From contig NZ_FWFO01000002.1 of the NCBI RefSeq assembly GCF_900172225.1, positions 372,001-436,000 of the forward strand: a DNA stretch of 64,000 nt, read 5' to 3'. Source of the DNA: Falsiruegeria litorea R37. GTDB lineage: Bacteria > Pseudomonadota > Alphaproteobacteria > Rhodobacterales > Rhodobacteraceae. The notes below the pieces were generated by a model that saw only the letters and a program-made list of their open reading frames with translations, had not been told where the DNA came from and searched no databases. Positions 27,522 through 42,942 of this stretch are shown here, piece after piece (the stretch's first letter is position 1; every line of letters begins with the position of its first letter). Position numbers and translations under genes: made by a program.

Positions 27522-27965
27522 ATGGCAAAGACCCAAGACTTTACCGCGATCATGAAAGACGTCATGGGCGCATTCCCCGTCGACACCACCGCAATGGAAG
27601 ACGCGTTCAAGTCGACCGCGACCCTGAACGAAAAACTGTCGGGCGTTGCTCTGGAAGCTGCTGAGAAATCGGCCGAGATCTCGAACAAATGGACCAAGGA
27701 CACCCTGGCCAAGCTGAACGAAGTTTCGAAAGCCAAAACCGACCCGGCCGACTATGCCAAAGCTGCAACCGACTTCGCATCCGCGTCGGCCGAAGTTGCT
27801 GCTGAAAACATGGCTGCCTTTGCCGAGATCGCGAAGAAAGTTCAGATGGACACCGTTGAGTTGTTCATGGCTGCCGGCAAAGACATCACCGAAGACGCAA
27901 CTGCTGCTGTGAAAAAGGCCACCAACGACGTGACCGCCGCAGCCAAAAAAGCAGCTGCCAAGTAA
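27522..27965 (+). CDS. phaP: Phasin (PHA granule-associated protein)
   Basis: A 147-residue helical phasin coating PHA granules. It is alanine-, lysine- and glutamate-rich with amphipathic helices (for example KWTKDTLAKLNEVSKAK and DITEDATAAVKKATNDV) and no cysteine, as in phasin family 2. AGAGGAT precedes the ATG. It has its own promoter with two PhaR-type operators and its own strong terminator, fitting high, granule-dependent expression. Confidence 0.92.
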   Translation: MAKTQDFTAIMKDVMGAFPVDTTAMEDAFKSTATLNEKLSGVALEAAEKSAEISNKWTKDTLAKLNEVSKAKTDPADYAKAATDFASASAEVAAENMAAFAEIAKKVQMDTVELFMAAGKDITEDATAAVKKATNDVTAAAKKAAAK

Positions 27966-28023
27966 GCGACAGAGCGGGTCGCACCGAACCCTCTCCTCCC
28001 ACTTTTTTGGTGCATCCCGTGCA

Positions 28024-28054
28024 GGGCAGGTCAAACGACCTGCCCTTTCTTTTT
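28024..28054 (+). terminator. Intrinsic terminator of phaP
   Basis: GGGCAGGTC (28024-28032) pairs with GACCTGCCC (28037-28045) around AAAC, followed by TTTCTTTTT. Confidence 0.85.
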
Positions 28055-28164
28055 GGTCCGGGGCCGGATCTGCTGACGCGCAAGTCAATAGCTGACCTCT
28101 TTTCTTTTGTTCTGCGCTCGCATAGGCTCTTGCTGCAATGCATCATTCCTGGGGAGGAAACTCG

Positions 28165-28722
28165 GTGGCAGAACAAGAAAAACCACTGCTGATCAAGCGC
28201 TATGCCAGCCGACGGCTCTATAATACAGAAACCAGCGATTACGTGACGCTCGAAGATATCGCGGGCTTTATCCGAGACGGGCGCGAGGTTCAGATCGTTG
28301 ACCTGAAAACCGGCGATGACCTGACACGACAATATCTGCTGCAAATCATTGCCGAACATGAAAGCCGGGGCGAGAACGTGCTGCCGGTGAATGTGCTGAA
28401 CGATCTGGTGCGCAGCTATATGGTGCCCGGCGGGGGAATGATGCCCCAGTTCCTGCAATCGTCATTCGAGATGCTGCGCGAAAGCCAGTCCAAGATGATG
28501 GAGAACATGAACGCCATGAACCCGATGGCCCAGATTCCCGGGTTCGAGGCCATGCAAGCCCAGCAAGAGGCGTTTCTGAAGGCGATGACTGGTGGTCTGT
28601 CCACCAATTGGTCGGCCCCGGATCAGTCTGAAAGCGCCAAGTCCGACGAGGGCGGCGAGGATCTGGACGAGATCAAGAAGCAACTGGCGGATTTGCAGAA
28701 CAAGCTGTCAAAGCTGAGCTGA
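28165..28722 (+). CDS. phaR: Polyhydroxyalkanoate synthesis regulator PhaR
   Basis: A 185-residue PHA-responsive repressor. The DNA-binding PHB/PHA accumulation regulator domain is N-terminal (LIKRYASRRLYNTETSDYVTLEDIA), followed by PHB_acc repeats with QILLQIIAEHE-like sequence and a C-terminal coiled region (EDLDEIKKQLADLQNKL). The start is the GTG at 28165, seven bases after GGGAGG. Two imperfect CTGC-type sites lie just upstream (about 28113-28145), so autoregulation is possible. A terminator follows. Confidence 0.93.
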   Translation: MAEQEKPLLIKRYASRRLYNTETSDYVTLEDIAGFIRDGREVQIVDLKTGDDLTRQYLLQIIAEHESRGENVLPVNVLNDLVRSYMVPGGGMMPQFLQSSFEMLRESQSKMMENMNAMNPMAQIPGFEAMQAQQEAFLKAMTGGLSTNWSAPDQSESAKSDEGGEDLDEIKKQLADLQNKLSKLS

Positions 28723-28745
28723 TTTACCGGCCTTCAAGTTCAAAG

Positions 28746-28773
28746 CCGCGCACGGAGACGAGCGCGGTTTTTT
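28746..28773 (+). terminator. Intrinsic terminator of phaR
   Basis: CCGCGC (28746-28751) pairs with GCGCGG (28762-28767), followed by TTTTTT. A family 1 repeat begins eight bases later. Confidence 0.75.
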
Positions 28774-28780
28774 GGTGTTC

Positions 28781-28868
28781 CGAGGGGCTCCCGCCCGTCG
28801 TTGGTGTTCCTGACGGAACGCCGCCTCCCGTTGGGCCGGGCGCCGCGCGGCGCGCGGCGCGGGTGGCG
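28781..28868 (+). repeat. Dispersed hairpin repeat, family 1, copy B
   Basis: It carries the shared head GGGGCTCCCGCCCGTCG, GTTCCTGACGGAAC and CCTCCCGTTGGGCC, then a GC-only palindromic block (GCGCCGCGCGGCGC) in place of the longer stem of copy A. The tail is missing. Confidence 0.65.
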
Positions 28869-28891
28869 TTTGGTGCAGACGGAGCGCGCCC

Positions 28892-30082
28892 TCAGGTGCC
28901 GTAACAGCGTACCGGACCTGCTGTTTCGGCTATCGCGGCCAGCAGGATATCGGCAATCGCATCCAGCTCGTCTCGGGACAAGGCGACTGGCAAGCGCACG
29001 TCGCAGGCGCGCATCAGCATCGCGCGGGTCTGCGGTAACTCGGGCAGATTGGGGATGAACTGCCAGTTCCAGAAGGCCCGCGCGTTGTCATCGCTGAGCC
29101 CAAAGACCTGTACCTTGACGCCTCGGGCCTCTGCCGCTTGGGCAAACTGGCGTGTTTCGGCCTCGTCCAGTCCCTGCAAGTTGAACTGGATCGAATCCGG
29201 GGCGCGACGTTCAGGGGCAAGCGGGGCGGGCACGGTGATATAGGGCGAGGTGCCGAGCCGTGCGGCTACATAGTCGTGGTTGGCCAGGCCGTCGGTTACA
29301 CGGCGCGCCAACTCGGGCAGCTGCGGTCGGATCACGGCGGCACTGAGGTTGCTCATCCGCAGGTTATACAGCGGCAGCTGGTTCTGCCATTTGGCAAAGC
29401 TGTCCTGTAGCACCGGATGTTTCTTCCAGTTGTGCTCATAAGCTCCAGACATGATGATCGCGCGCGCCACCAGATCGGCGTCATCCGTGATCAGGATGCC
29501 GCCTTCTCCTGCGTTGATCATCTTGTAGGACTGAAAACTGAAACAGCCGATCTTGCCGATGGTGCCGATGTTCCGCCCGTTCCAAGTGGTGCCAAGCGAA
29601 TGGGCTGCATCTTCGATCACGGGAATGCCGCGCGCATCACACTGGGCCATGATGGCATCCATGTCCGAGGTGTGGCCGCGCATGTGGCTGATGATCACGG
29701 CTTGCACATCGGGCAGCTTGGCTGCGAAATCGCTCAGATCGACGCGGTAACTGTCGTTCACCTCGCACAGGACCGGCACGCAGTCGGCATGCACGACCGA
29801 AGATGGCACAGCGGCAAAAGTGAAGCCGGGGATCAGGACGCGGGCATCACGCGGCAGGCCAAGCGCCTTGAGCGATAGAAAGAGAGCAGCCGAGCAGGAC
29901 GACACTGCCAGGGCGTATTTCGCCCCCAGCAGATCCGCAAACTCTTGCTCTAGCAAGGCAACCGGCGCGTCCTGTGGCGCGGTATAGCGAAACAGGTCAC
30001 CAGAGCTCAGCAAGGCGTCGATGGCGTCACGGGCCGCGGCGGGAATGGGTTCGGCCGCATGCACATTCGGGGGCAGTGTCAT
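28892..30082 (-). CDS. DegT/DnrJ/EryC1/StrS-family aminotransferase
   Basis: A 396-residue PLP enzyme of the DegT/DnrJ/EryC1/StrS group. The cofactor lysine is in SYKMINAGEGG, the cofactor-stacking block is IEDAAHSLGTTW, and PGFTFAAVPSSV matches the family's N-terminal domain. Members usually aminate nucleotide-linked keto-sugars, but some act on other cyclic ketones; the bulky insert and the absence of any sugar genes nearby leave the substrate open. It stands alone between phaR and a VOC gene. Confidence 0.85.
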   Translation of the reverse strand: MTLPPNVHAAEPIPAAARDAIDALLSSGDLFRYTAPQDAPVALLEQEFADLLGAKYALAVSSCSAALFLSLKALGLPRDARVLIPGFTFAAVPSSVVHADCVPVLCEVNDSYRVDLSDFAAKLPDVQAVIISHMRGHTSDMDAIMAQCDARGIPVIEDAAHSLGTTWNGRNIGTIGKIGCFSFQSYKMINAGEGGILITDDADLVARAIIMSGAYEHNWKKHPVLQDSFAKWQNQLPLYNLRMSNLSAAVIRPQLPELARRVTDGLANHDYVAARLGTSPYITVPAPLAPERRAPDSIQFNLQGLDEAETRQFAQAAEARGVKVQVFGLSDDNARAFWNWQFIPNLPELPQTRAMLMRACDVRLPVALSRDELDAIADILLAAIAETAGPVRCYGT

Positions 30083-30273
30083 ATTTCAAAATCCTACAGG
30101 GTCCCTTTGGGAAACCTAAAACAAACCCTGTGACCTGCCAAGCCAAAGTTCTGTGACACGATGCAAGTTTCTTGGTGAGATGACGCGATTTCCGGGTTGT
30201 ACGGCATGTGTCCGTTCCCAGGCCAGTTGTGTATCCTGACCCTGCCGTTTGAGGTTTTGAAAGGACGTGAGGA

Positions 30274-30690
30274 ATGATTGCCTATGTGACAGTCGGCGTT
30301 GACGACATCACCCGCGCAGAGAGGTTCTATTCGGCGTTCCTGCCCGCATTGGGGTTTGAGTTGGAATGGTATCATGGGGATCTGAGCTATGCCTTGCCGG
30401 TTGAACCGGGAAAGGCGCCGACTTCGCCCGACTTTTACGTCAAATCGCCGTTTGACGGGCAGGGCGCGTCGGCCGGGAATGGCACGATGGTGGCCTTTGA
30501 GGCGCGCAATCAGCAGCAAGTGCGCGAATTGCATGCTGCGGCCCTGGCCGCAGGGGGCACGGACGAGGGCGCGCCGGGGTTTCGGGCTTCATACGGGGCG
30601 AATTTTTATGTGAGCTACCTGAGAGATCCCCAAGGCAACAAGATCGCCTTGTTTTCGAGCGACCCGGATGATCTCGGGCGGGATGGGTAA
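30274..30690 (+). CDS. VOC-family protein
   Basis: A 138-residue glyoxalase-fold protein, opening AYVTVGVDDITRAERFYSAFLPALGFE and closing YVSYLRDPQGNKIALF. The conserved second-module order supports a VOC dimer, but metal-binding residues are incomplete and the substrate is unknown. AAAGGACGTGAGGA precedes the ATG. It diverges from the aminotransferase gene and converges on the first ligase gene of the amine cluster. Confidence 0.83.
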   Translation: MIAYVTVGVDDITRAERFYSAFLPALGFELEWYHGDLSYALPVEPGKAPTSPDFYVKSPFDGQGASAGNGTMVAFEARNQQQVRELHAAALAAGGTDEGAPGFRASYGANFYVSYLRDPQGNKIALFSSDPDDLGRDG

Positions 30691-30715
30691 TGCAGGCGCA
30701 TCGGCGGTCGGTGCC

Positions 30716-30752
30716 CAAAAAGAACCCGCCGCCGGAGAGATCCGGGGCGGGT
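30716..30752 (-). terminator. Intrinsic terminator of the amine-utilisation cluster
   Basis: A long GC-rich stem (30724-30736 with 30741-30752, GAGA loop on the plus strand) is followed on the minus strand by TTCTTTTT, about 30 bp after the last ligase gene. Confidence 0.75.
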
Positions 30753-30784
30753 CAGTTCGATACCTCCAGTCAAAACTACAGGGA

Positions 30785-32143
30785 TCAGACGTTCAGCAGC
30801 AAATGCTCCCGCTCCCAGGGCGAGATCACTTGCAGAAACTCTTCGTATTCAGCGCGTTTGACGATGGAATAGACGCGCGCAAACTCGGGTCCCAGCACTT
30901 TGTGCAGGGCCTTGGCACCGTCAAACATATCCAGCGCTTGGCCCAGAACCTGTGGGATGTCGCCTTCGCCCTCATAGGCATCGCCATAGAACTGACGGCG
31001 CGGACGCATCTGTTCTGTCAGACCCAGATAGCCACAGGCCAGGGACACGGCGATGCCCAGATAGGGGTTGCAGTCCATACCCGCGATCCGGTTTTCCACC
31101 CGGCGCGCCTCGGGTCCTGACAGGGGGACGCGAATGCCGGTTGTCCGGTTGTCGCGCGCCCATTCCAGATTGATGGGTGCGGCGTGGTCTTTCACATAGC
31201 GGCGGTATGAGTTCACATAAGGCGCCATGACCGCAAGGCCCGAGGGCAGGTGGTTCTGCAGCCCCGCGATGAAGTGATAAAACGCGTCCGTCTCGCCGCC
31301 CTGAGGGCCCGAGAAGATGTTTTGACCCGTTTCGATGTCGATGATCGAGTGGTGGATGTGCATCGCACTGCCAGGCTCATCCTCGATCGGTTTGGCCATG
31401 AAAGTGGCGAAACAATCGTGGCGCAGCGCGGCCTCGCGGATCAGGCGTTTGAAATAGAACACCTCATCCGCCAGCTTGACTGGATCGCCGTGCAGCAGGT
31501 TGATTTCCAACTGACCGGCGCCACCCTCTTGGGTGATGCCGTCGATTTCAAATCCTTGGTGTTCGGCAAAGTCATAGATGTCGTCGATCACCGGACCAAA
31601 CTCGTCCACGGCGGTCATCGAATAGGCCTGACGTGCCGCTGCTGGCCGACCTGAACGGCCCATCATCGGTTCGATTGCCTTGGCGGGGTCGACGTTGCGG
31701 GCAACCAGAAAGAATTCCATCTCGGGGGCCACAATCGGCTCCCAGCCTTGGTCCCGATAGAGCTGAACCACGCGTTTGAGCACATTGCGCGGCGAATAGG
31801 GGATCGGGTCGCCGTCGCGGTCATAGGCGTCGTGGATCACCTGCAGCGTCCAGTCGCCTGTCCAGGGCGCGGCCGAGGCTGTGTCCATGTCCGGTTTCAG
31901 GATCATGTCCTTTTCGATGAAACCGTCCTCGCCCGCGGCCTCACCCCAGTCGCCGGTGATGGTCTGATAGAAGATGCTGTCGGGCAGGTGAAAGTAGTCC
32001 TGTTTGGCGAACTTGCTGGCTGGCACCGCCTTGCCGCGGGCGATGCCGGGAAGGTCCGAGATCACGCATTCAACTTCATCCAAGCGCCTCCCGTCCAAAT
32101 AGGTTTGCGCTGCTTGCGGAAGATTGTCTTTCCAATCGGTCAT
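30785..32143 (-). CDS. Glutamine synthetase-like ligase (gamma-glutamylamine synthetase)
   Basis: A 452-residue member of the glutamine synthetase superfamily. Catalytic beta-grasp and GS C-domain features include EMEFFLV for the metal glutamate, AMHIHHSI, and the arginine-rich block NRTTGIRVPLSG. It is closest in outline to gamma-glutamylputrescine synthetase (PuuA) rather than nitrogen-assimilating GlnA, so it probably joins glutamate to an amine with ATP. It overlaps the amidotransferase gene by four bases (ATGA) and ends the cluster. Confidence 0.88.
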   Translation of the reverse strand: MTDWKDNLPQAAQTYLDGRRLDEVECVISDLPGIARGKAVPASKFAKQDYFHLPDSIFYQTITGDWGEAAGEDGFIEKDMILKPDMDTASAAPWTGDWTLQVIHDAYDRDGDPIPYSPRNVLKRVVQLYRDQGWEPIVAPEMEFFLVARNVDPAKAIEPMMGRSGRPAAARQAYSMTAVDEFGPVIDDIYDFAEHQGFEIDGITQEGGAGQLEINLLHGDPVKLADEVFYFKRLIREAALRHDCFATFMAKPIEDEPGSAMHIHHSIIDIETGQNIFSGPQGGETDAFYHFIAGLQNHLPSGLAVMAPYVNSYRRYVKDHAAPINLEWARDNRTTGIRVPLSGPEARRVENRIAGMDCNPYLGIAVSLACGYLGLTEQMRPRRQFYGDAYEGEGDIPQVLGQALDMFDGAKALHKVLGPEFARVYSIVKRAEYEEFLQVISPWEREHLLLNV

Positions 32144-32829
32144 GCTGCACCTGCTTTAGCAAAGAAATGGGCCATCTCTTGCCCGATCTGAGGGCTGTCG
32201 ATGGGGTTTTCCAGACGCGTCACGGCCGCGTCCAAAAGGGGATCGGGGACCAGCCCGCGCCCGCGTGCCTTGATCAGCCCGTCGACAAAGTCGTTGCTGA
32301 ATTCGGGGTGGGCTTGAACCGTCCAGATCCGATCGCCATAGGCCAGCATCGCGTGTTTGCACATCGCATTGCTGCCCAGAACCTGCGCACCTTCGGGCAG
32401 TTCGGTAACCTGATCCTGATGCCAGGCGTTGATCACGACTTGCCGGTCGCCATAGTCGTATTCGGTTGGACCAACGACCCAACCGCAGCTGAATTTCTCG
32501 ACTTTTCCCCCCAGGGCCTGGGCGATGATCTGGTGGCCAAAACAGACCCCAATCATGGGAATGCCCCGCGTGTGGATATCGCGGATCAGTTGCTCTAGCG
32601 GGGGGATCCAGTCGTGGTCCTCATAGGCGCCATGCTTTGATCCGGTCAGCAGCCAACCGTCGCAGGCGTCAGCGCCGTCCGGGAATTCATTGTCCACTAC
32701 AGCATAGGCGGCATAGTCAAAGTCATGCCCGTGTCCGTCCAACAGGCGTGCAAAGATCTTGTCATAGTTGCCCGTCTCGCCGATCAGGGCGTCCGGGGCG
32801 TGGCCGGTTATCAGAATACCGATTTTCAT
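32140..32829 (-). CDS. Class I glutamine amidotransferase (possible gamma-glutamyl hydrolase)
   Basis: A 229-residue class I amidotransferase domain with nucleophile cysteine in IGVCFGHQIIAQALGG and the His/Glu pair in VQAHPEF. Sitting between two glutamylamine-type ligases, it may hydrolyse gamma-glutamyl intermediates, the role PuuD has in putrescine breakdown; this is inference from context. The ATG has only a weak GGTGA site, and a perfect 16-bp palindrome lies eight bases further upstream, so the promoter is probably very close. Confidence 0.85.
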   Translation of the reverse strand: MKIGILITGHAPDALIGETGNYDKIFARLLDGHGHDFDYAAYAVVDNEFPDGADACDGWLLTGSKHGAYEDHDWIPPLEQLIRDIHTRGIPMIGVCFGHQIIAQALGGKVEKFSCGWVVGPTEYDYGDRQVVINAWHQDQVTELPEGAQVLGSNAMCKHAMLAYGDRIWTVQAHPEFSNDFVDGLIKARGRGLVPDPLLDAAVTRLENPIDSPQIGQEMAHFFAKAGAA

Positions 32830-32837
32830 GGGTCACC

Positions 32838-32853
32838 AAATTTGATCAAATTT
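32838..32853. promoter_or_regulatory. Palindrome AAATTTGATCAAATTT, candidate operator 1
   Basis: A perfect 16-bp palindrome just upstream of the amidotransferase gene. Fifteen of the sixteen bases recur upstream of the neighbouring ligase gene at 34265-34280. Confidence 0.6.
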
Positions 32854-32888
32854 TACGATACCCGAGCAAGGGAGCGCTCGCAAGGGTG

Positions 32889-34208
32889 TCAGACGGTTTC
32901 CAGATAGCTTAGCCAGTGACGTTCCGTCGGGCGCTGTGCAAAGAGCGCGATTTCCTGTCGCTTGGTCATGGCCATGTTGCGGATCAACCCGGGCGACAAG
33001 ATACGCGCGACAATGGCGCTGTTTTCGAACTGTTCGACGGCTGATGGCAGGGTCGGGGCAAGCTGTGGAACACCATCCAGCGCATAGGCGTTTCCAGTGA
33101 TCGGGGTCGGCGGCTCCATCGCGTCTTCGATCCCGACCATGGCAGCACCCAAGATGGCAGCCAGCATGAGGTACGGGTTGGTATCACCTCCCGCAACGCG
33201 GTGCTCGATCCGGCGCGCGGCTGCGGCACCGCCTGGAATGCGCAGTGCGGCGGTTCGGTTCTCATAGGCCCAGCACGCGCCGGTGGGGGCGTGGGCTCCG
33301 GGCACCAGCCGGGTGTATGAGTTCCCGTGAGGAGCAAAGATCAGCGTGCAATCGGGCATCGCGGTCAGACATCCAGCCACCGCATGTCGCAGCAGATCGG
33401 TGCCTTCGGGGCCGCCGTTGTCCAGGACATTGGTGCCATTTTCGTCAACAATGGAAAAATGCACATGCATCCCGTTGCCGGCATCATCAGCATAGGGTTT
33501 GGCCATGAAGGTTGCTGCAAACCCGTGTTTGCGGGCCAAACCGCGCACCAGAACCTTGAACAGCAGCGTATCATCGGCACATCGCATTGCATCCTGGTGG
33601 TTCAAGTTGACTTCGAACTGCCCGATGCCCGCCTCTGAAATTGCGGCCTGTGCGGGGATGTCCATCTGGGCGCAGCTCTCGTAAAGGTCCGAAAAGAAGC
33701 CGTCAAAGGCGTCGAGTTCCGTCATGGACAGCACGGCCTCATCTTCAAGCGCGCGGCCTGAAATGGGGTTGCGCGGTGGTTGTGGGGCCTCGCCACTGTC
33801 GTCGAGCAGTGTGAACTCCAATTCGGTCGCCGCGATGACGGTCCAGCCGCGCGCGGCGTAGCGGTCCAGCACATCGGCCAGCGCGTGGCGGGGATCGCCA
33901 TCAAAACGCGTGCCGTCATCGTGATACAGCGCCATGGGTACCAGCGCCGAAGGCCGTGTCAGCCAAGGCATCGGCACCGCCCCCCGCTCGGTCGGGCGCA
34001 AGACACCATCGGCATCACCGCTTTCGAACACCAGCGGGCTGTTTTCGATATCCGCGCCCCATAGATCCACATTCAGTGCCGAAAACGGAATGCGGACGGC
34101 GCCCTTGTCCAGCTTTCCGGCATAGGCCGCGGGAACCCGTTTGCCGCGCAACTGCCCATTCAGGTCAACGGCGGCGACGCGAAAGGTGTCGAACTGTGCA
34201 AGGTCCAT
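32889..34208 (-). CDS. Glutamine synthetase-like ligase, second paralogue
   Basis: A 439-residue glutamine synthetase-family ligase, clearly distinct from the neighbour at 30785-32143. Visible blocks are TELEFTLLDD, FEVNLNHQDAM, GMHVHFSIVDENG and ENRTAALRIPGG. Gamma-glutamylation of an amine is the probable reaction. It may be specific for a different amine or amino acid than its paralogue. GGAGCG precedes the ATG. A candidate operator palindrome lies 57 bp upstream; the permuted amine oxidase gene precedes it in the same direction. Confidence 0.87.
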   Translation of the reverse strand: MDLAQFDTFRVAAVDLNGQLRGKRVPAAYAGKLDKGAVRIPFSALNVDLWGADIENSPLVFESGDADGVLRPTERGAVPMPWLTRPSALVPMALYHDDGTRFDGDPRHALADVLDRYAARGWTVIAATELEFTLLDDSGEAPQPPRNPISGRALEDEAVLSMTELDAFDGFFSDLYESCAQMDIPAQAAISEAGIGQFEVNLNHQDAMRCADDTLLFKVLVRGLARKHGFAATFMAKPYADDAGNGMHVHFSIVDENGTNVLDNGGPEGTDLLRHAVAGCLTAMPDCTLIFAPHGNSYTRLVPGAHAPTGACWAYENRTAALRIPGGAAAARRIEHRVAGGDTNPYLMLAAILGAAMVGIEDAMEPPTPITGNAYALDGVPQLAPTLPSAVEQFENSAIVARILSPGLIRNMAMTKRQEIALFAQRPTERHWLSYLETV

Positions 34209-34264
34209 GGGACGCTCCGTTATAGTTTGTCGACAGATAACCGAGCTGGAGGGGTCTTGTCACT

Positions 34265-34280
34265 AGATTTGATCAAATTT
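34265..34280. promoter_or_regulatory. Palindrome AGATTTGATCAAATTT, candidate operator 2
   Basis: It differs from the palindrome at 32838-32853 by one base and lies in the 96-bp gap before the second ligase gene. The matching pair suggests one regulator for both promoters. Confidence 0.6.
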
Positions 34281-34304
34281 CGAAGGGCAGCAAACTGCGC
34301 CGTG

Positions 34305-35525
34305 TTAAACAGGATAGGCGCGGTTCAGGGTCTGTTGTGCCAACCGCAAAATTTTCTTGTCGGATGTTCTGGCCAGATCACGCGCGGGTCCCGCCCCGTT
34401 GAAGGCGACCAGAACGGGTTCATCAATATAGGGGGCAAGGTTGAGCCACTGATTGAATTGCCCCGGTGGCAAGCCGTTTTCGGGTGTGAGGATCCATGTG
34501 GCATCGGCATCCCAGAACACCGTGTCATAGCGCAGATAGACCTTATCCAGCAGTCCCATGCCGAGCCTCTCAATCGCTGCCCGTTTCTGTTTGGGCAAGG
34601 CAGGGACAAAGCGGATGTGATCGGTTTTCAGAACGCCCAAGGGCACGGTGACGATGACGGCATCGACCCCGGTTTCCTGACCTTGCGCGTCGCGCAATCG
34701 TACTTTGGTCGGCGTCGTCTCGATCTTGCGGATGTCCGTGTTCAGGCGAATGTCCAGGCCACGATCAAAGGCGCGCAAAATTGCATCATACCCTTTGGGG
34801 AATATCCACTCTTCCCCGTCGTAGTCATTGTCTGTTGCATATGCCAGCAAGTTCATTTGGTTCAAACTGGCCCCGGCGTCGTGCTGAACCTCGGTCACTT
34901 CGTCAAGCCAATCGGGGGCGTCGGCGTCGCGCATCAAGCGCCCGCCTTGGCCGCGCAGGACGTAGCTTTCGTCGGTGGTGCGATGAGGCATGCCTTGGGA
35001 TCTGGTCAAGCGGGTCAAAGGGTTGCCATCTGTGCCGTGCAGCCAACTGGCCCCAAGGTCAAGCGGCAGACCCAACCGCCTGTCTGTCCAAATTCGCCCG
35101 CCCGTGCGATTGCGGGCCTCAAGCACGACAACATCTGCGCCCGCCTCCGACAGATACCGCGCGGCAGCCAGGCCGCTTATGCCTGCGCCGATGATGGCAA
35201 TGCGTTTGTGCCCGATACGGGCGGCGGCCTTGCCTGCGAACTGCCCCGATTCCAAAGCCGCATGAACGGTGCCGTTGTATTCGGGATGCGCGGCCTCACC
35301 GGCAAAGAAGATCCTCTCGCCCACAGGTTCAGCCAAATCACCAGAGTGCCGGCGGCGCGATCCTTTGGCGAAGAACGAATATGAACCCAGGCTATAGGGA
35401 TCACGGCTCCAGTTGGTGCGGATATAGCCATTGGCTGAGCGGCCCTGGGTCGCCATTGCAGGCAATGGAGTGAACCCTGCCGTGGCTGTTGCACAAAGTT
35501 GCGCGAGAAAGGCACGACGCTTCAT
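34305..35525 (-). CDS. Circularly permuted flavin amine oxidase with Tat signal
   Basis: A 406-residue flavin amine oxidase whose parts are in an unusual order. Residues 1-25 look like a Tat signal (KRRAFLAQL ... AMA). Residues 33-104 are the segment that ends normal monoamine oxidases (IRTNWSRDPYSLGSYS, then FFAGEA at 73-78 and TVHAALESG). Only then comes the Rossmann FAD motif GAGISG (113-118) with Glu136 and RTGGR (140-144), the usual N-terminus. The C-terminus stops at NRAYPV, exactly where the moved segment would normally continue. It should oxidise an amine to an aldehyde, probably in the periplasm. Confidence 0.88.
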   Translation of the reverse strand: MKRRAFLAQLCATATAGFTPLPAMATQGRSANGYIRTNWSRDPYSLGSYSFFAKGSRRRHSGDLAEPVGERIFFAGEAAHPEYNGTVHAALESGQFAGKAAARIGHKRIAIIGAGISGLAAARYLSEAGADVVVLEARNRTGGRIWTDRRLGLPLDLGASWLHGTDGNPLTRLTRSQGMPHRTTDESYVLRGQGGRLMRDADAPDWLDEVTEVQHDAGASLNQMNLLAYATDNDYDGEEWIFPKGYDAILRAFDRGLDIRLNTDIRKIETTPTKVRLRDAQGQETGVDAVIVTVPLGVLKTDHIRFVPALPKQKRAAIERLGMGLLDKVYLRYDTVFWDADATWILTPENGLPPGQFNQWLNLAPYIDEPVLVAFNGAGPARDLARTSDKKILRLAQQTLNRAYPV

Positions 35526-35610
35526 TTCCTAACCTCCATTGGTCCCTTCATGGGCGTAGCATGATGGGGTGAGGCCGGGAAGCCATGCGGGCCATCTGTG
35601 GATGGCTGTT

Positions 35611-36417
35611 CTAGCGCACCAGGTTTGGCCGAAACCGCATCTTGGCCTTGCGAGCCTTGGGCAAGTGGCGGTTCAAACGCGTGTTGATCAGCCCGAAAAC
35701 ACCCACGATCACAAGCGTCAGCAGGATGAAATAGAACGCCAGGATCGGGTACGGCACAAACGGATTGAATGTCTTGTCCGCGAAATAACTGGCGTAATAG
35801 AGCGCATCGCCTTTTTGCCTCCAGGCCGGGAAGGCTGAAAAGAACACGAGCGTCGTGGCGTGGAACAGAAAGATCGCCTCGTTCGTATAGGCGGGCCAGG
35901 CCAGCCGCAGCATGGTGGGCCAGATGATGCGGCGAAACCGCGACCAGCCCGACATGCCATAGGCATCCGCCGCCTCGACGTCGCCCTTGGGGATCGAGCG
36001 CAGCGCGCCGTAGAAGATCTCACCCGAATAGGCGGCAGTGTTGAAGAACAGCACAATCAGCGCCCCCAGCCAGGCCGAGGTGAAGGCGTCGAACATTGGA
36101 TAGGCCTTCTTCAACGACAGGAAGAAGAAGTAGGCAAAGAAGAACTGGATGAAGAGCGGCGAGCCCCGGAAGATGAAGATGAACCATTCCGAAGGTTTGC
36201 GCAGCCAGATGTTGCTCGATGCCTTGCCAAGCGCCAGGGCAGTGGCAAAGAAAAACCCGGTCACCAGTGCCATGGCGCCGAAATAAACGTTCCAGATCAT
36301 GCCCGAGCCGATCAGGGTGAACTGTTCGCACAGGGTAAAGTCGGTCTTGGGCAGCAGGCGCTCGCCATAGCCAAGGGACCGCAGGCCATAGTCCTGGATG
36401 GTCTGAAAACAGCTCAT
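35611..36417 (-). CDS. ABC amino-acid/amine transporter permease (HisM-type)
   Basis: A 268-residue inner-membrane permease with about five or six hydrophobic segments. The ATPase-contact EAA loop reads EAADAYGMSGWSRFRRIIWP. It pairs with the next permease as the heterodimeric channel of a polar amino-acid (lysine/arginine/ornithine- or octopine-type) importer. The ATG at 36417 has AAGGAG upstream; that site can be folded into a small hairpin. The region 36418-36508 between the permease genes contains two hairpins. Confidence 0.88.
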   Translation of the reverse strand: MSCFQTIQDYGLRSLGYGERLLPKTDFTLCEQFTLIGSGMIWNVYFGAMALVTGFFFATALALGKASSNIWLRKPSEWFIFIFRGSPLFIQFFFAYFFFLSLKKAYPMFDAFTSAWLGALIVLFFNTAAYSGEIFYGALRSIPKGDVEAADAYGMSGWSRFRRIIWPTMLRLAWPAYTNEAIFLFHATTLVFFSAFPAWRQKGDALYYASYFADKTFNPFVPYPILAFYFILLTLVIVGVFGLINTRLNRHLPKARKAKMRFRPNLVR

Positions 36418-36421
36418 GCCC

Positions 36422-36473
36422 GGTCTCCTTGCAAAAGAGACCGCGCGCGCGAAAGCGACTGCAACGCAGTCGC
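36422..36473 (-). other. Two hairpins in the permease-permease gap
   Basis: GGTCTC/GAGACC (36422-36427 with 36437-36442) encloses part of the downstream permease's AAGGAGACC ribosome site on the minus strand, and GCGACTGC/GCAGTCGC (36455-36462 with 36466-36473) is a perfect eight-pair stem with an AAC loop. They may adjust translation of the second permease. Confidence 0.4.
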
Positions 36474-36508
36474 GTGCGGCGCCCATTGGCAATTCTTGCG
36501 AAGAGGGA

Positions 36509-37396
36509 TCATACTGTTGCCTCCTTGCGCTGTGCTTCGCCACCGGTGGTGGCCTGTCCGTGGCTGAGCTTTTGCATCAGACGCTCCAGCGCGATCTCGG
36601 ACACACGGGTGAAGGCCAGGTAGAATACCAACAGGAACAGGAAGTACCACATGCGCCAGTCGCCATGCGGATAGGCGGTGAACTTGGATGTCTTGGTGCC
36701 ACCCAGTTCGCGCGCCCAATAGACGATGTCTTCGACACCCAGCAGGAACAGCAGCGGCGTGGCCTTGATCAGCACCATCCAGAGGTTCGACAGGCCGGGC
36801 AGGGCATAGACCCACATCTGCGGCACGAGGATGCGCCAGAAGGTCTGGCGGCGGCTCATGCCATAGGCTTCAGCCGTTTCCAGCTGGGCATGGGGCACGG
36901 CACGCATGCCGCCAAAGAGAACGTTTGCGGCAAAGGCGCCAAAAACGATGGCAAAAGTGATGACGGCGAGGAAGAAGCCGTATGTTTCATGCACCCATTC
37001 GGGTGACGTGCCTAAGGGCAGTTTGGCCTGCGCGCAGACCAGGAAGTCATTGCCCTGCCGGATCGGATCGGTCCAATCGGGGCAGAGGATCTGGTGCCGC
37101 GTCCATTCGAATGCCTGATCCAATGCGATGACAAAGAACAGGAAAAACGCGATGTCCGGCACGCCACGCACGATGGCGATGTACCCTTTGCCCAGCCAGC
37201 TGACGGGCGGAATATGCGACCGGGCCGACATGGCCCCCGCAAAGCCAAAGGCCAGCGCCACGGGTGCGGTGATGGCCAGCAAGGCCAGAACCTTGATGAA
37301 GGACAGGTAGAACGACATGTGCACGCCGTTGGTCAGATAGCACGAGAACCAACGAAAGGTGCCAAGCGTGTCGGGATCGGCGCAGTAGGAAAACAT
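36509..37396 (-). CDS. ABC amino-acid/amine transporter permease (HisQ-type)
   Basis: A 295-residue permease, longer than usual because of a periplasmic insert with two cysteines (about residues 105-140: HQILCPDW ... LVCAQAK). The EAA loop is ETAEAYGMSRRQTFWRILVP. The N-terminal region is YLSFIKVLALLAITAPVALAFGF. ATG at 37396 follows AAGG; a TTG one codon earlier is less likely. An intrinsic terminator separates it from the solute-binding gene. Confidence 0.88.
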   Translation of the reverse strand: MFSYCADPDTLGTFRWFSCYLTNGVHMSFYLSFIKVLALLAITAPVALAFGFAGAMSARSHIPPVSWLGKGYIAIVRGVPDIAFFLFFVIALDQAFEWTRHQILCPDWTDPIRQGNDFLVCAQAKLPLGTSPEWVHETYGFFLAVITFAIVFGAFAANVLFGGMRAVPHAQLETAEAYGMSRRQTFWRILVPQMWVYALPGLSNLWMVLIKATPLLFLLGVEDIVYWARELGGTKTSKFTAYPHGDWRMWYFLFLLVFYLAFTRVSEIALERLMQKLSHGQATTGGEAQRKEATV

Positions 37397-37457
37397 CAAG
37401 TCAGCCTTGGGCGGGGCAGGTTTGGCGATCGGGGGTGATCAGCCACAAAAAACCGGC

Positions 37458-37494
37458 AAAAGAAACGGTCCCGCGCGTGTGACGCACGGGACCG
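37458..37494 (-). terminator. Intrinsic terminator after the solute-binding protein gene
   Basis: A 12-position stem with one mismatch (37466-37477 with 37483-37494) runs on the minus strand into TTTCTTTT, giving partial termination before the permease genes. It fits an excess of binding protein over channel. Confidence 0.75.
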
Positions 37495-37507
37495 CAAGGA
37501 TCAGAGA

Positions 37508-38230
37508 TCAGTAAGTGCGGGTGTCTTCGCCGAACCACTTGATCAGCAATTCGTTCAGCGAGCCGTCCTCTTTCATCGAGGTGATGGCCGCATCGAACTT
37601 GCCACGCAGTTCGCCGTCGGATTCACGCAGGCCCATGCCAACGCCACCACCCAGCGGAACCGGGTCGCCGACGAAGACCAGCTCGCCGTTCGATTCCTCG
37701 ACCAGCGGCGCCAGATAGTCACGGTCGGCCAGAACGGCATCCGCTTCGCCGTTGCGGACGGCTGCGATGGTTTCTTCCGGAGTTGCAAACTCGACCAGGG
37801 TTGCGCCGGATTCGGCCACGTGACCTGCCTGGATGGTCGCGGTCTGAGCGGCGACAACGCCACCGGTCACGTCAGCACCTTCGGCAGCGGCAACATAGGC
37901 CGACGCCGCGGGGGGCTGATAGTTCTGGGTGAAGTCGATGACCTCATCACGCTCGGCAGTGATCGACATGCCGGCGATGATGGTGTCGTAGTTGCCCGAG
38001 ACCAGGTTCGGAATGATCGAATCCCAGTCGTTCTTGACCCATTCGCAGGTCAGACCGGCGCGTTTGCACATCTCATCGCCCAGCTCACGCTCGAAACCGT
38101 CGATCTCGCCGGCGTCATTGATGAAGTTGTACGGAGGGTAGGCGCCCTCGGTGCCCATGCGGACGGTTTCGGCCATTGCCAAACCGGCGCTCAGTGCCAG
38201 TGCAGCTGTTGTCAGGATCAGTTTTTTCAT
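37508..38230 (-). CDS. ABC transporter periplasmic solute-binding protein (SBP family 3)
   Basis: A 240-residue periplasmic binding protein with a signal peptide (ALALSAGLAMA/E near residue 20). The family 3 signature is EGAYPPYNFINDAGEIDGFE and DWDSIIPNLVSGNYD, as in lysine/arginine/ornithine and octopine/nopaline binders. The ligand is probably a basic amino acid, opine or amine, given the catabolic genes downstream. It lies between the ATPase and permease genes. Confidence 0.9.
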   Translation of the reverse strand: MKKLILTTAALALSAGLAMAETVRMGTEGAYPPYNFINDAGEIDGFERELGDEMCKRAGLTCEWVKNDWDSIIPNLVSGNYDTIIAGMSITAERDEVIDFTQNYQPPAASAYVAAAEGADVTGGVVAAQTATIQAGHVAESGATLVEFATPEETIAAVRNGEADAVLADRDYLAPLVEESNGELVFVGDPVPLGGGVGMGLRESDGELRGKFDAAITSMKEDGSLNELLIKWFGEDTRTY

Positions 38231-38264
38231 GTTTTCACTCCCCTATTTTTGGTTTCGTTTCTAG

Positions 38265-39041
38265 TTAAGCAGCCTGCGTGGCAGACAAAAAGCCCTGCAG
38301 GCGTTCGGATTTGGGCGCGCCAAACAAGGCGTCGGGCGAGCCCTCTTCTTCGATCAGCCCCTGGTGCAGGAACACCACGTGGCTGGAAATATCAGCGGCC
38401 ATTTTCATGTCATGGGTCACGATGATCATCGTGCGCCCCTCGGCCGCCAGGTCCTTGATCACCTTGATCACTTCCTGTTCCAGCTCGGGGTCAAGCGCCG
38501 ATGTGGGCTCGTCAAAGAGCAGCGCCTCGGGCTCCATGCACAGGCCCCGCGCAATGGCGGCACGCTGTTGTTGGCCACCTGACAGCTGCGCAGGATAAAC
38601 GTCGCATTTGTCGCCAATGCCCACCTGGTGCAGGTATTTGCGTGCGCTTTCCTCGACCTCGGCCTTGTCGCGGCCCAGGACAGTGACAGGCGCCTCCATC
38701 ACGTTTTGCAGGATGGTCATATGGGCCCACAGGTTGAACTGCTGGAACACCATCGACAGGTTCGTGCGGATGCGCAGCACCTGTTTGGGGTCGGCTGGGC
38801 GACGCCCGTGGTGTTCACCCTTCCATGCGACGGGCTCGCCCTTGAACAGGATCTCGCCCTGTTGGCTGTCTTCCAGCAGGTTGCAGCACCGCAGCAATGT
38901 GGATTTTCCCGATCCCGATGATCCGATCAGCGACACCACGTCGCCCCGGTGGGCCGTGATATCAACGCCTTTGAGCACCTCGAGCTGGCCAAAGCTTTTG
39001 TGCAGGTTCTTGATCTGGATGACAGGAGGTGTGTCTGACAC
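38265..39041 (-). CDS. ABC transporter ATP-binding protein (HisP-type)
   Basis: A 258-residue ATPase of the polar amino-acid transport group. Walker A is GSSGSGKST, the signature is LSGGQQQR and Walker B is ALLFDEPTSAL, then the H-loop VTHDM. It powers the importer built from the two permeases. The start is taken as the GTG at 39041, giving the normal opening PVIQIKNLHKSFG; an in-frame start 24 codons earlier would add sequence unlike the family. It is the first gene of the transport cluster. Confidence 0.88.
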   Translation of the reverse strand: MSDTPPVIQIKNLHKSFGQLEVLKGVDITAHRGDVVSLIGSSGSGKSTLLRCCNLLEDSQQGEILFKGEPVAWKGEHHGRRPADPKQVLRIRTNLSMVFQQFNLWAHMTILQNVMEAPVTVLGRDKAEVEESARKYLHQVGIGDKCDVYPAQLSGGQQQRAAIARGLCMEPEALLFDEPTSALDPELEQEVIKVIKDLAAEGRTMIIVTHDMKMAADISSHVVFLHQGLIEEEGSPDALFGAPKSERLQGFLSATQAA

Positions 39042-39147
39042 GTGGAATCCGAAGGTTTGTACCGGTTTTGGTGGGCTAATAGGGCTGAATTTTTGTCGCA
39101 ATGCAACTTGCAAAACGAATGTTTCGCCCCGGAAAGCGCCGAATTGA

Positions 39148-39903
39148 CTATACGGAACTGTCTTTTTCGGCGGGCGAAGGCGGTGTTGGGACAGCCAAAT
39201 ATACCTCTGCGGGTATGTCGATCAGCCCCCGGATGTGCAGCAATTGCCGGGTGTCTTCGTCCATCGCAGCAATCGCAGCCCGAACGGCGGCCGCAATCGG
39301 TGCAGGGTCGTGTGACTGCGCAGTCACAAAGGGCAAGGTTGGCGTGGGCTCCGTGCGGGTCACAACGCGCAGCTTGCTTGCCAGATTCGGTTCATGTTCG
39401 GTCAGCAGAACCCAAGTCAGCGCATCCAGAGCGGCAAGGTCTGCGCGTCCCTCGGCCACCGCCTTCGCCGACAGGGCATGGCCGCCGGATTGCAGCAAAG
39501 TGTCTACTTTCAATCCCAGTGAGTGCAGATGTGTCGTTGGCGCAGCCCATCCCGATTGCGACAGCGGCTCGTTATAGGCGAATGTGCCGGTCACCAATTC
39601 GTCCAGCGGTCGGGGATCATCCGAGCGGGCCACAAAGGTTGAATAATAATAGCCGGGCGGGCAATCGGGCAGGCCATAGTCGGGCGTACCGATCAAGGTA
39701 ACCGTGCCATGCAGCTTGGTGCGATACGGCATGCCGCAGGTCTGCGAAAACACCATGCTTGGGTCGTGCCAGATGTCCCAGAAATCCCGCTCTCGATCCA
39801 ACATCTCGGGGCCGTCCCCCAAATGCGTGCGGATCGCAGCCCAGAAGGCGTCATTGGCGTCTTGCAGGGCGGGCATGTCATACATGCCGAGCATCGCGGT
39901 CAT
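39148..39903 (-). CDS. PhnD-like substrate-binding protein without signal peptide
   Basis: A 251-residue protein resembling the phosphate/phosphite/phosphonate ABC substrate-binding (PhnD/TauA-like) fold, with SQTCGMPYR, GHALSAKAVAEGRADLAALDALTW and a C-terminal helix. No signal peptide or lipobox is present, and the start is fixed by an ATGA overlap with the preceding TerB gene, so it is probably cytosolic. It might be a sensor or an enzyme rather than a transporter component. Confidence 0.75.
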   Translation of the reverse strand: MTAMLGMYDMPALQDANDAFWAAIRTHLGDGPEMLDRERDFWDIWHDPSMVFSQTCGMPYRTKLHGTVTLIGTPDYGLPDCPPGYYYSTFVARSDDPRPLDELVTGTFAYNEPLSQSGWAAPTTHLHSLGLKVDTLLQSGGHALSAKAVAEGRADLAALDALTWVLLTEHEPNLASKLRVVTRTEPTPTLPFVTAQSHDPAPIAAAVRAAIAAMDEDTRQLLHIRGLIDIPAEVYLAVPTPPSPAEKDSSV

Positions 39904-40337
39904 GAACGGGCCGCCTTTTGCCGGGCAAGCGCCGAATCGCGGTCATTCACACCCAGCAAGTTGGCCACCAGCCGCAGCAGCGCGTCTTCTTCCTCGGCCC
40001 GTTCGCCATCGGCCAGAACCACCGACCACAGCGCCTCGACCACGGCGCGGCGGTCTTCATAGGCCACCGCATCCTTGATCGCGCGGGTAAAGCGCACGGT
40101 GTCGGGGGCTTCGGCCTCCAGCCCTTCGGCCTGCGAGCGCAGACCCGCCGCTTCGAACGGGGACAGGCCATAGCGCGCCGCGGTGATGCGGTCGATGCGG
40201 GCCATCTCTTCGGGGGCGTAATCATTGTCCGATTTGGCGATGCGCACCAAAAGCGCGGTCAGCGCAAGGCGGGCGTCTTCGTCGGGCAGTTGGGCGGGGT
40301 CCGGCTGCGTCAGCCGCGTCAGGAAATCACGAAACAT
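39900..40337 (-). CDS. TerB-like tellurite-resistance family protein
   Basis: A 145-residue helical protein of the TerB family: ALTALLVRIAKSDNDYAPEE, ALWSVVLADGERAEEEDALLRLVANLLGV. TerB-like proteins bind metal through acidic residues; a tellurite phenotype is not implied. The ATG at 40337 begins a normal family N-terminus. It overlaps the PhnD-like gene by four bases and follows a second TerB gene 55 bp upstream. Confidence 0.8.
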   Translation of the reverse strand: MFRDFLTRLTQPDPAQLPDEDARLALTALLVRIAKSDNDYAPEEMARIDRITAARYGLSPFEAAGLRSQAEGLEAEAPDTVRFTRAIKDAVAYEDRRAVVEALWSVVLADGERAEEEDALLRLVANLLGVNDRDSALARQKAARS

Positions 40338-40392
40338 GTAGAAAGGTATAGGCGTGCATCTGCAGTGCGCCAAGAGGCGCCGTGCGCTGCGG

Positions 40393-40833
40393 TCAGACTT
40401 TTTCCATCGCGCGGCGGCGGGCTGCTTCGCTGTCCTTGAAGCTCAACCCCATGGCGATTCGCGCCTCTTCTACAATCTTAAGCTCGCCTTCCTGCTGTTC
40501 GCCATCGGCCAGAACGACCTCCCACAGGGCGTCCAGTGCGGCCAGACGCTCCTCAAGACCGGTCGTCTCGCGGATCAGGCGGCCAAAGGTGTCGGTCTCG
40601 GGCGCTGCCGCATGCAGCTTTTCGCAAGTCGCACGCACTTTGGCGGCCTCAATCGCGTTGTGTTGATAAAGCCGGGCCAGAATGCGGTCGATCAGGCTGA
40701 TTTCTTCGAGCTGATAATCGCGGTCGGACTGCGCCACGCGCACAAGCAGTGCCCCAAGGGCCAACTCGGCATCCGGGTCGGGCAGCGGGGCAGGGTCAGA
40801 TGGGCGAAACGCCTGGAAAAACTTCTTCAGCAT
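40393..40833 (-). CDS. TerB-like tellurite-resistance family protein, tandem paralogue
   Basis: A 146-residue paralogue of the next gene, sharing the order LALGALLVRVAQSDRDYQLEE, RLAALDALWEVVLADGEQQEGE and ARIAMGLSFKDSE. The two proteins align end to end, pointing to tandem duplication and divergence. The ATG follows a run of GAAG bases. It lies 43 bp after the DUF1330 gene in the same direction. Confidence 0.8.
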   Translation of the reverse strand: MLKKFFQAFRPSDPAPLPDPDAELALGALLVRVAQSDRDYQLEEISLIDRILARLYQHNAIEAAKVRATCEKLHAAAPETDTFGRLIRETTGLEERLAALDALWEVVLADGEQQEGELKIVEEARIAMGLSFKDSEAARRRAMEKV

Positions 40834-40875
40834 GATCTGAAATTACCCCATATTTTGCGTTTCGCCAAGGGCGAA

Positions 40876-41169
40876 CTACCCGGTATAGCCTTCGACGATA
40901 ACCAGATCCCCGGTTGAAACCGGATCGCGAATGTCCTTGGCTGCCTGATAGCCGATACTCTCATAACACTCGATCGCCTTTTCATAGCTTTCGAATTCCA
41001 GCACCACGGTACGGGCCCGCGCGTGACCTTCGCGGACTTGCTGCTCTCCGCCACGCACCAGAAACTTGGCACCATATTCCGCAAACGGCGCGGCGTTTGC
41101 CGCGACATAGTTCTTATAAGTCTCCATGTCGTCCACGTCGACATGCGCCACCCAGTACCCTTTGGCCAT
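40876..41169 (-). CDS. DUF1330 domain protein
   Basis: A 97-residue protein of the dimeric ferredoxin-like DUF1330 family. It opens KGYWVAHVDVDDMETYKNYVA and contains FLVRGG and RTVVLEFESYEKAIECYES, both typical. Family members are widespread small enzymes or binding proteins without established function. It is the first of a four-gene minus-strand series with the TerB and PhnD-like genes. Confidence 0.88.
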   Translation of the reverse strand: MAKGYWVAHVDVDDMETYKNYVAANAAPFAEYGAKFLVRGGEQQVREGHARARTVVLEFESYEKAIECYESIGYQAAKDIRDPVSTGDLVIVEGYTG

Positions 41170-41229
41170 CTGCCTCTCTCCCCTTCAGTTTGACGTAGAG
41201 TGCGGCGGGGCTATGAATAACGCAACCGA

Positions 41230-41292
41230 GCATCTTCCTCTTGCCAGAAATATCCCGGGGGAGGCGCGCAGCGACGGGGGCAGAGCCCCCAT
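41230..41292 (-). repeat. Dispersed intergenic repeat, family 2, copy b
   Basis: Read on the minus strand it shows a GGGGGCTC/GCCCCC hairpin, CGCGC, CCCCCGGGATATTT and AAGAGGAAGA, matching the layout of the plus-strand copy at 18851-18903. It lies between pyrG and the DUF1330 gene. Confidence 0.55.
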
Positions 41293-41298
41293 CCAACG

Positions 41299-42942
41299 TT
41301 ACACCAACCGCGAGGTGTCCTTGGCTGCGCGCACAAAATCAGCAAACAGGGGGTGCGGCGCAAAGGGCTTGGATTTCAGCTCGGGGTGGAACTGTACGCC
41401 GATGAACCACGGATGGTCAGCCCATTCCACGATCTCGGGCAGACGGCCGTCTGGTGACATGCCCGAGAATTTCAACCCGGCGGCTTCCAGCTTTTCGCGG
41501 TACTTGATGTCGACCTCATAGCGGTGGCGGTGACGCTCTTCGATCTGGGTCGATCCGTAAACTTCCGCCACATTCGACCCATCGGCCAGTGCCGCGTCAT
41601 AGGCCCCCAAGCGCATGGTGCCGCCCTTGTCGTCATCGGCTTTGCGCTGCACCGTGTGGTTGCCCTGAACCCATTCTTTCAGGTGATAGACCACCGGCTC
41701 GAACCGTTTCTCGCCCGCCTCGTGGTCGAATTCCTCGGACCCAGCGGTCTTGATGCCCGCCACATTACGAGCCGCTTCGATCACCGCCATCTGCATGCCC
41801 AGACAAATGCCCAGATAAGGGATCTTGCGGGTACGGGCGAACTCGGCCGCCTTGATCTTGCCTTCGGTGCCGCGCTCGCCAAAACCACCAGGCACCAGAA
41901 TGGCATGGAAGCCTTCCAGATGCGGGGCTGCGTCGCTGCGGTCGAATACCTCGGCATCAACCCAGGACACGTTCACCTTGACCCGGTTCGCCATCCCGCC
42001 ATGGGTCAGCGCCTCTTTGATCGACTTATAGGCATCTTCGAGCTGGGTGTACTTGCCGACGATGGCCACGTTCACTTCACCATCGGTGTTGTGGATGCGG
42101 TCCTTGACGTCGTTCCAGGTCGCCAGATCGGGCTTGGGCGCGGGCGAGATGTTGAAGGCATCGAGCACGGCCTGATCCAGACCCTGCTCGTGATAAGCCA
42201 GCGGTGCCTCATAGATCGAGCTCAGGTCATAAGCCGCGACTACGGCCTCTTTCCGGACGTTACAGAACAAAGCGATTTTCTCGCGTTCCTTGTCCGGGAT
42301 CGGCTGTTCCGAGCGGCAGACCAGGATGTCGGGCGCTATGCCGATGGATTGCAGCTCCTTGACCGAGTGTTGGGTCGGTTTCGTTTTCAACTCACCCGAG
42401 GCCGCCAGATAGGGCAGCAGCGTCAGGTGCATGAAAATGCACTGACCGCGGGGTTTGTCGTGGCTGAACTGACGGATGGCTTCGAAAAACGGCAGGCCTT
42501 CGATGTCGCCAACGGTGCCGCCGATCTCGCACAGCATGAAATCGACCTCATCCTCTCCGATCGAGATGAAGTCCTTGATCTCGTTGGTGACATGGGGAAC
42601 CACTTGAATGGTCTTGCCCAGGTAGTCGCCGCGGCGTTCCTTTTCCAGCACGTTTGAATAGATCCGGCCCGACGACACCGAGTCGGTTTTGCGGGCAGGC
42701 ACACCAGTGAAACGCTCGTAGTGGCCCAGGTCCAGGTCGGTTTCCGCGCCGTCATCGGTCACGAAAACCTCGCCGTGCTCAAATGGCGACATGGTGCCGG
42801 GGTCGACGTTCAGATAGGGGTCCAGCTTGCGCAGGCGGACCGAATAGCCACGTGCTTGCAGCAGCGATCCCAGGGCGGCGGACGCCAGACCCTTGCCAAG
42901 CGAAGATACAACACCGCCAGTGATGAAGATAAAACGCGCCAT
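41299..42942 (-). CDS. pyrG: CTP synthase
   Basis: A 547-residue CTP synthase that aminates UTP using glutamine and ATP. The synthetase domain begins [15 protein letters not shown] and has [19 protein letters not shown]; the C-terminal amidotransferase has nucleophile cysteine in [10 protein letters not shown] and the His/Glu pair in GVQFHPE. Length is standard. The start is the ATG at 42942. The upstream secG gene lies 170 bp away and ends with its own hairpin. Confidence 0.97.

Follow-up and report, generated by a model that had tools for sequence, protein, structure and literature searches.

The window (the whole stretch of DNA analysed, 64,000 nucleotides from Falsiruegeria litorea R37) carries a gene for a flavin amine oxidase-like protein of 406 residues, which sits on the same strand as, and between, the genes of an ABC transporter and a set of glutamine-synthetase-like and amidotransferase genes. 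The features of the locus, in window coordinates, are as follows.

30785..32143, minus strand, second glutamine-synthetase-like gene (neighbour ORF)
32140..32829, minus strand, class I glutamine amidotransferase gene (neighbour ORF)
32889..34208, minus strand, glutamine-synthetase-like gene of the gamma-glutamyl-amine ligase type, 96 bp downstream of the oxidase gene
34305..35525, minus strand, circularly permuted flavin amine oxidase gene, 406 aa (ORF and PF01593 match)
34311..34853, minus strand, substrate-binding/catalytic segment, residues 225-405, ending at the new C-terminus (PF01593 positions 182-366)
34542..34544, minus strand, codon of Lys328, aligned with the lysine of LSD1 NLNK (K in 38/38 permuted sequences)
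34935..35207, minus strand, Rossmann segment, residues 107-197, equivalent to the canonical N-terminus (PF01593 positions 1-86 on residues 116-197)
35214..35429, minus strand, moved block, residues 33-104, equivalent to the canonical C-terminal FAD/active-site segment (PF01593 positions 374-438; canonical tails align here)
35448..35525, minus strand, Tat-type signal, residues 1 to ~26 (R3 and R4 invariant in nine sequences; pattern plus hydrophobic stretch)
35532..35537, minus strand, Shine-Dalgarno-like GGAGGT, 6 bases upstream of the ATG (read from the sequence)
35611..39113, minus strand, polar amino-acid-type ABC transporter, four genes
35611-36543 and 36509-37399, minus strand, permeases of this transporter
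37508-38230, minus strand, binding protein of this transporter
38265-39113, minus strand, ATPase of this transporter

The oxidase frame started with ATG and contained no internal stops, in keeping with the continuous reading frame reported in the preliminary description. Within the protein, KRRAFL occupies residues 2-7, FFAGEA 73-78, TVHAALESG 86-94, and GAGISG 113-118, and the chain ends in LNRAYPV. The moved block follows the motif string TxWxxDP..GSYS...FFAGEA..TVHAALESG, and the Rossmann segment, which overlaps an NAD_binding_8 match on residues 111-173, reads GAGISG ... EARNRTGGR ... GASWLHG. For the neighbouring genes, no listed NCBIfam model reached its cut-off.

By profile the protein belongs to PF01593 (Amino_oxidase, 443 positions), with an E value of 5.7e-67 for the whole chain and 227.4 bits against a curated cut-off of 19.8. 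The match was split into three pieces, all over the cut-off, in which profile positions 374-438 fell on residues 33-97 (E 1.5e-11), positions 1-86 on residues 116-197 (E 1.7e-22), and positions 182-366 on residues 225-405 (E 1.3e-30). The canonical N-to-C segment order is thus broken, and the protein is a permuted variant of the family rather than a plain member. This piece order bears out the original observation that the block normally ending monoamine oxidases (FFAGEA ... TVHAALESG, residues 33-104) precedes the FAD-binding GAGISG at residue 113, and the last piece (182-366) agrees with the accompanying statement that the chain breaks off at the point where the block would normally start. 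LSD1 chains aligned in the same manner, residues 108-213 and 217-343 of the window protein matching their body and residues 36-101 a region near their C-terminus. The cut falls between profile positions 366 and 374; the same segments are present, reordered with one joint and with no loss at the cut, as in a circular permutation. Away from the cut, profile positions 87-181 (the helical substrate-domain stretch) face just 27 residues and are largely missing. Chance is excluded because each piece is significant alone and the same order recurs in 8/8 full-length close relatives.

We compared 38 distinct permuted proteins with 38 canonical relatives. The permuted set left out a contig-end fragment (L018), two proteins identical to others (L023 and L025, the same as L009 and L016), two close to L065 (L066 and L069), and the repeats L081, L083, and L085; L028 was retained although a contig end cuts it. 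The canonical set left out L003 (tail motif not found) and L041 (frame stops before the tail), and the alignment of canonical tails, with 36 sequences, was additionally made without L104 and L049. In the permuted proteins AGE starts 37-43 residues ahead of GxGxxG (exactly 38 in 29 of the 38), and in the canonical relatives it starts 367-401 residues after it. The tails of all 36 aligned canonical relatives, except for a few trailing residues of some, lined up with approximately residues 32-105 of the window protein, their AGE falling at residue 75. Counted from the start of AGE, canonical chains run on for 28-47 residues (for 28-35 in most of the closest relatives) and permuted chains for ~33 residues before the Rossmann strand begins, which indicates that the old ends were joined with few extra residues at most.

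A scan of a one-genome-per-species collection gave 10 loci. Eight were full-length relatives with 50-64% identity to the window protein, all permuted, from records named Tropicibacter, Roseobacter, Pelagimonas, Marivita, Rhodobacteraceae, and Alphaproteobacteria; the others were the fragment L018, which starts in the permuted manner, and a canonical relative from Mycolicibacterium (L017). Genome samples drawn around the phylum of the window and Actinomycetota only were then compared with joint profiles, either A2 (128 positions across the new joint) or the wider A3, and a genome was counted as permuted only if one stop-free open frame covered approximately the whole joint. The gene was present in 15 of 394 genomes of the window's family, in 3 of 385 in the class sample (the window's own genome and two of family f16), and in 5 of 398 in the phylum sample (the genome of the window, two others from its family, and two from f194, a family outside the window's class). 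Family f16 had the gene in 4/17 genomes and f194 in 11/119, the class of the f194 genome G825 in 1/274 (G825 itself), and Actinomycetota, the phylum of Mycolicibacterium, in 4/198. The samples overlap, and the counts cannot be summed. The permuted gene is sparse but recurrent across two phyla. A search for proteins of the same order had been proposed at the outset, and it found them in two families belonging to the same class as the window, in a further family from a different class, and in Actinomycetota; of the two alternatives offered there, a family that has kept this order therefore stands and a rearrangement confined to a single lineage does not.

Half matches to the joint profile were not counted as permuted, nor were several near-misses. 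L046 (profile 18-127, two stops) corresponds to a gene, L103, that is canonical, L051 (profile 5-93, one stop) is canonical, as is the gene L096 at L092 (profile 5-129, one stop), and a Haloarcula record matching positions 25-129 showed the canonical order on translation. No full-joint match occurred in the genome or records behind L017, L019, L020, and L022. Among plasmids, 98 records resembled the window protein, and none of the 10 that matched the joint covered 80% of it. None of the eight loci found by the joint profile on viral contigs was permuted (two were truncated frames), and relatives were not found there with A1 or L017. In the PDB, no best stretch crossed the joint among the best 60 of 275 sequences. 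Related canonical polyamine-oxidase-like genes (L117, L118, L119, and L128) were seen on uncultivated viral contigs of 41-75 kb. On a 4.1-kb viral contig (L120) the amine oxidase frame breaks within the tail block and continues into ATPase-like sequence, and this contig is probably chimeric.

Such an order could in principle be an artefact in which misassembly, a frameshift, or annotation caused two adjacent amine-oxidase fragments to be read as a single gene. That reading draws on the general risk of such errors, as in the few joint-profile matches elsewhere (L046, L051, and L092) that had stops and proved canonical, and we consider it extremely improbable given the stop-free single frames in independent records, the constant offset of 37-43 residues between AGE and GxGxxG, and the selection on these genes. 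The values of dN/dS were 0.10-0.25 in six close pairs of permuted genes, with synonymous sites near saturation in the pair formed by the window gene and L009, and the permuted genes are under purifying selection. Misassembly had been named beforehand as a result that would overturn the claim; independent assemblies carry the permuted order, which rules this out. Retention of the order in dozens of relatives in two phyla likewise marks it as a real, selected enzyme family and not an assembly error.

The residues expected of a working flavoenzyme were retained throughout the permuted set. The FAD-binding residues (GxGxxG, the acidic residue after strand 2, GGR, and the AGE of the tail) were found in 38/38 sequences, and the same was true individually of G113, G115, G118, E136, G142, G143, R144, E77, Lys328, Tyr49, and Trp39. 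The position of Lys328, which we take to be equivalent to the lysine near flavin N5, was a lysine in all 38 permuted sequences compared with 31/38 canonical ones. Tyr49 and Thr86 presumably correspond to Tyr761 and Thr810 of LSD1, and Thr86 is a threonine in 30 of the 38 permuted sequences. We regard it as quite unlikely that the protein is permuted but no longer an amine oxidase, that is, a flavoprotein with a lost or other activity: the subgroup of the window is short of ~40 residues of the helical substrate domain, as such a loss would suggest, but the invariant Lys328, the complete FAD motifs, and dN/dS values well below 1 speak against it. The distance between two landmarks on either side of this region was 132-136 residues in 26 permuted sequences and 161-177 in nine (three had no usable landmark), compared with 164-198 in the 32 canonical sequences measured (six had no usable landmark). 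The deletion lies away from the cut and is lacking in those nine permuted sequences; it is found in the sequences of the window's class and the actinobacterial L086. It marks a subgroup, so that the loss came after the permutation or apart from it.

A structural model was obtained with AlphaFold2 from a 28-row alignment into which canonical proteins were entered as separate core and tail pieces. The model had a pLDDT of 90.8 and a pTM of 0.88; only residues 1-19 fell under pLDDT 50, and ten-residue means across residues 31-110 were 88-98. (A first run with a shallow nine-row alignment gave a pLDDT of 56 and a pTM of 0.55 and was not used for structural claims.) Judged from these scores, the moved block may sit at the FAD site. 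A failure of the fold to close, which the preliminary description had offered as grounds for rejection, was not what the prediction returned: it was confident apart from the signal. The top Foldseek match was LSD2 (4fwj_A, E 3.5e-24, TMq 0.67), followed by LSD1 and then maize polyamine oxidase 1b37 (TMq 0.63). Since a sequential aligner can match just the ~300-residue core of the 406 residues, the ceiling of TMq is ~0.74, and the value of 0.67 indicates that the core of the window protein is close to the LSD2 fold. The old termini of the amine oxidase fold adjoin each other in the FAD domain, and the permuted fold should therefore close as usual. The cut would correspond to the last crossing of the chain from the substrate domain to the FAD domain, in which case the permutation makes the FAD domain more contiguous.

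We built trees from 76 proteins, all set to the canonical order, to follow the origin of the permutation. The order changed four times on the best tree, and a single permuted clade was present in 0% of 200 bootstrap trees. Holding all 38 permuted proteins as one clade cost only 3.48 log-likelihood units (AU p 0.43 on the quick tree; p 0.48 without L071 and L072), so that the AU test allows a putative single old origin. The worst fit to a single clade came from L071/L072, which lay among the canonical sequences in both trees, and L088/L089, which lay there in the careful tree; the group of L086, L087, and f194 also did not join the alphaproteobacterial permuted sequences in the free tree. The order might have arisen several times independently at the same loop, the termini of the fold being side by side, and the four changes, the absence of one clade from the bootstraps, and the placement of L071/L072 and L088/L089 are what such a history would leave. 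We nevertheless hold repeated origin to be rather doubtful in view of the small cost of one clade and the identical joint length in 29 of the 38 sequences, and we infer one origin rather than several. L071 and L072 (f194) form a very divergent permuted lineage without a signal, on a branch of ~1.8 changes per column, and are possibly an independent permutation or a fast-evolving enzyme. L086 (Actinomycetota) has a ~40-residue helical deletion like that of the window's class and L087-L089 retain the segment, a possible sign of gene transfer from one phylum to the other.

Fusion of pieces from two different parents is not favoured. Similarity to canonical relatives follows the same ranking in the core and in the moved block, which is what descent of the two from a single parent would produce; the median rho was 0.56 in permuted sequences (as low as 0.19 in single ones) compared with 0.49 for properly paired canonical sequences. 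Mispaired controls gave 0.21 with a 5-95% span of -0.42 to 0.64, and the comparison has little power.

The Tat-type signal (KRRAFL) that had been noticed ahead of the moved block held up as a pattern. R3 and R4 were invariant in the window protein and eight aligned relatives, and by a rule of our own rather than SignalP (twin Arg or Lys-Arg, followed by an uncharged hydrophobic stretch) such a signal was present in 29 of the 38 permuted proteins, the nine without it being exactly the f194 sequences. A lipobox was also seen in four actinobacterial permuted proteins and, by the same loose pattern, in L036. The n-region and hydrophobic stretch of the window protein are those of a Tat substrate, and the genome encodes TatC, by which alone the Tat system was recognized. 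On these sequence features the protein is probably exported by Tat, folded with FAD, into the periplasm. The signal was also found in 24/38 canonical relatives and was thus probably not created by the permutation; the likeliest course starts from a canonical ancestor that was already exported and whose signal stayed at the N-terminus when the tail was placed after it, the f194 proteins having lost the signal or never possessed one.

The export signal bears on the electron acceptor. According to PMC12224317, members of the family are dehydrogenases when a Tat signal is combined with a cytochrome c gene next door, and most tested members that have just the Tat signal are reoxidised rapidly by O2. 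On this criterion the window enzyme, which has the signal and no adjacent cytochrome c gene, would be a periplasmic oxidase. NicA2/Pnao, as described in the same paper, resemble it in their Tat-type signal and differ in having a neighbouring cytochrome c gene. That the protein is instead a periplasmic amine dehydrogenase with cytochrome c and not O2 as its electron acceptor seems unlikely to us: of the two genetic signs on which PMC12224317 relies, the Tat signal is one, and in that paper one enzyme with the signal and without a neighbouring cytochrome gene reacted slowly with O2, but the second sign, an adjacent cytochrome c gene, was not seen here. No ORF of at least 60 residues with CxxCH was present in window positions 27001-43000 or in the flanks of nine relatives, nor was CxxCH found in ORFs of at least 100 residues in 10 further flanks, a length that small cytochromes could escape.

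The neighbouring genes hint at amine or polyamine use. Only L009, the protein of which is identical to that of a same-genus genome, shared the neighbourhood among the nine loci compared, and the context is therefore weak evidence of the substrate; 10 further flanks, whose ORF lists were read by eye without family searches, had no obvious gene in common. The two glutamine-synthetase-like genes (~33% identical across the comparison of the window and L009) flank the amidotransferase, as in an amine cluster of the gamma-glutamylation type. The roseobacter relatives L010 and L011 share two ORFs immediately upstream of the permuted gene, one of them regulator-like on inspection by eye, and this context is unlike that of the window. 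From the fold, sequence similarity, and neighbours together, the substrate is most likely a polyamine or similar amine.

LSD1/LSD2 (KDM1A/KDM1B) are the best PDB matches of the window protein by sequence and fold and share its FAD motifs and the lysine in NLNK/LLDK, but they have the canonical order and only 20-25% identity in the fold alignments listed. They are nuclear histone demethylases with extra domains (tower, SWIRM, and zinc finger). Polyamine oxidases (maize PAO 1b37, which is also similar in fold, yeast Fms1, and spermine oxidase) match in sequence and are of similar size; they too are canonical, so that the halves of the joint profile match their opposite ends. Canonical bacterial kin contain the ~40 helical substrate-domain residues that the window protein is without. 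Four Tat-bearing canonical proteins, L017 (Mycolicibacterium), L020 (Haloarcula), L059, and L095, belong to the nearest canonical relatives by core as well as by tail and have the same kind of signal but the canonical block order. Natural circular permutations are known from other families, including DNA methyltransferases, swaposins, and lectins, in which the same kind of rearrangement yields the same fold from a reordered chain. A full-text search of the open-access literature, judged on titles and the starts of abstracts, gave no permuted flavin amine oxidase among the papers listed (15 of 191 hits for one query, all hits for the others), and the word stem "permut" is absent from the available portion of PMC12224317. 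Circular permutation as such is already known; the permuted flavin amine oxidase family is a new form of it.

Taken together, we consider it probable that the gene represents a natural permutation of a flavin amine oxidoreductase that was fixed as a subfamily, and that its product is a Tat-exported periplasmic oxidase of amines, probably of the polyamine type. The canonical order of signal, Rossmann/FAD segment, substrate and catalytic part, and C-terminal FAD/active-site block would have changed such that the last block now stands behind the signal and ahead of the Rossmann strand, with few extra residues at most between them, and the old joint before TxWxxDP would have become the new C-terminus. 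The enzyme would bind FAD, oxidise its amine by passing a hydride to the flavin next to the conserved lysine, and presumably reoxidise the flavin with O2. A further proposal, that the reordering was adaptive by easing FAD loading and Tat folding control and that one old event spread across two phyla, appears improbable at present. The reordering puts both FAD-binding halves, which usually lie at opposite ends of the chain, within the first 160 residues after the signal; if the proposal were true, they would form a self-sufficient FAD module that would load its cofactor during synthesis of the remainder and help the Tat passenger through folding control.

Profile matches that come in pieces can conceal a reordered subfamily under an ordinary family name. 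The amine oxidase fold (MAO, LSD1, and polyamine oxidases) is relevant to drugs and is usually assumed to come in a single, fixed chain order. A permutation of it that arose in nature and is kept by selection is a ready experiment on how segment order affects cofactor loading, folding, and export, and it gives enzyme engineers new termini at a proven site.
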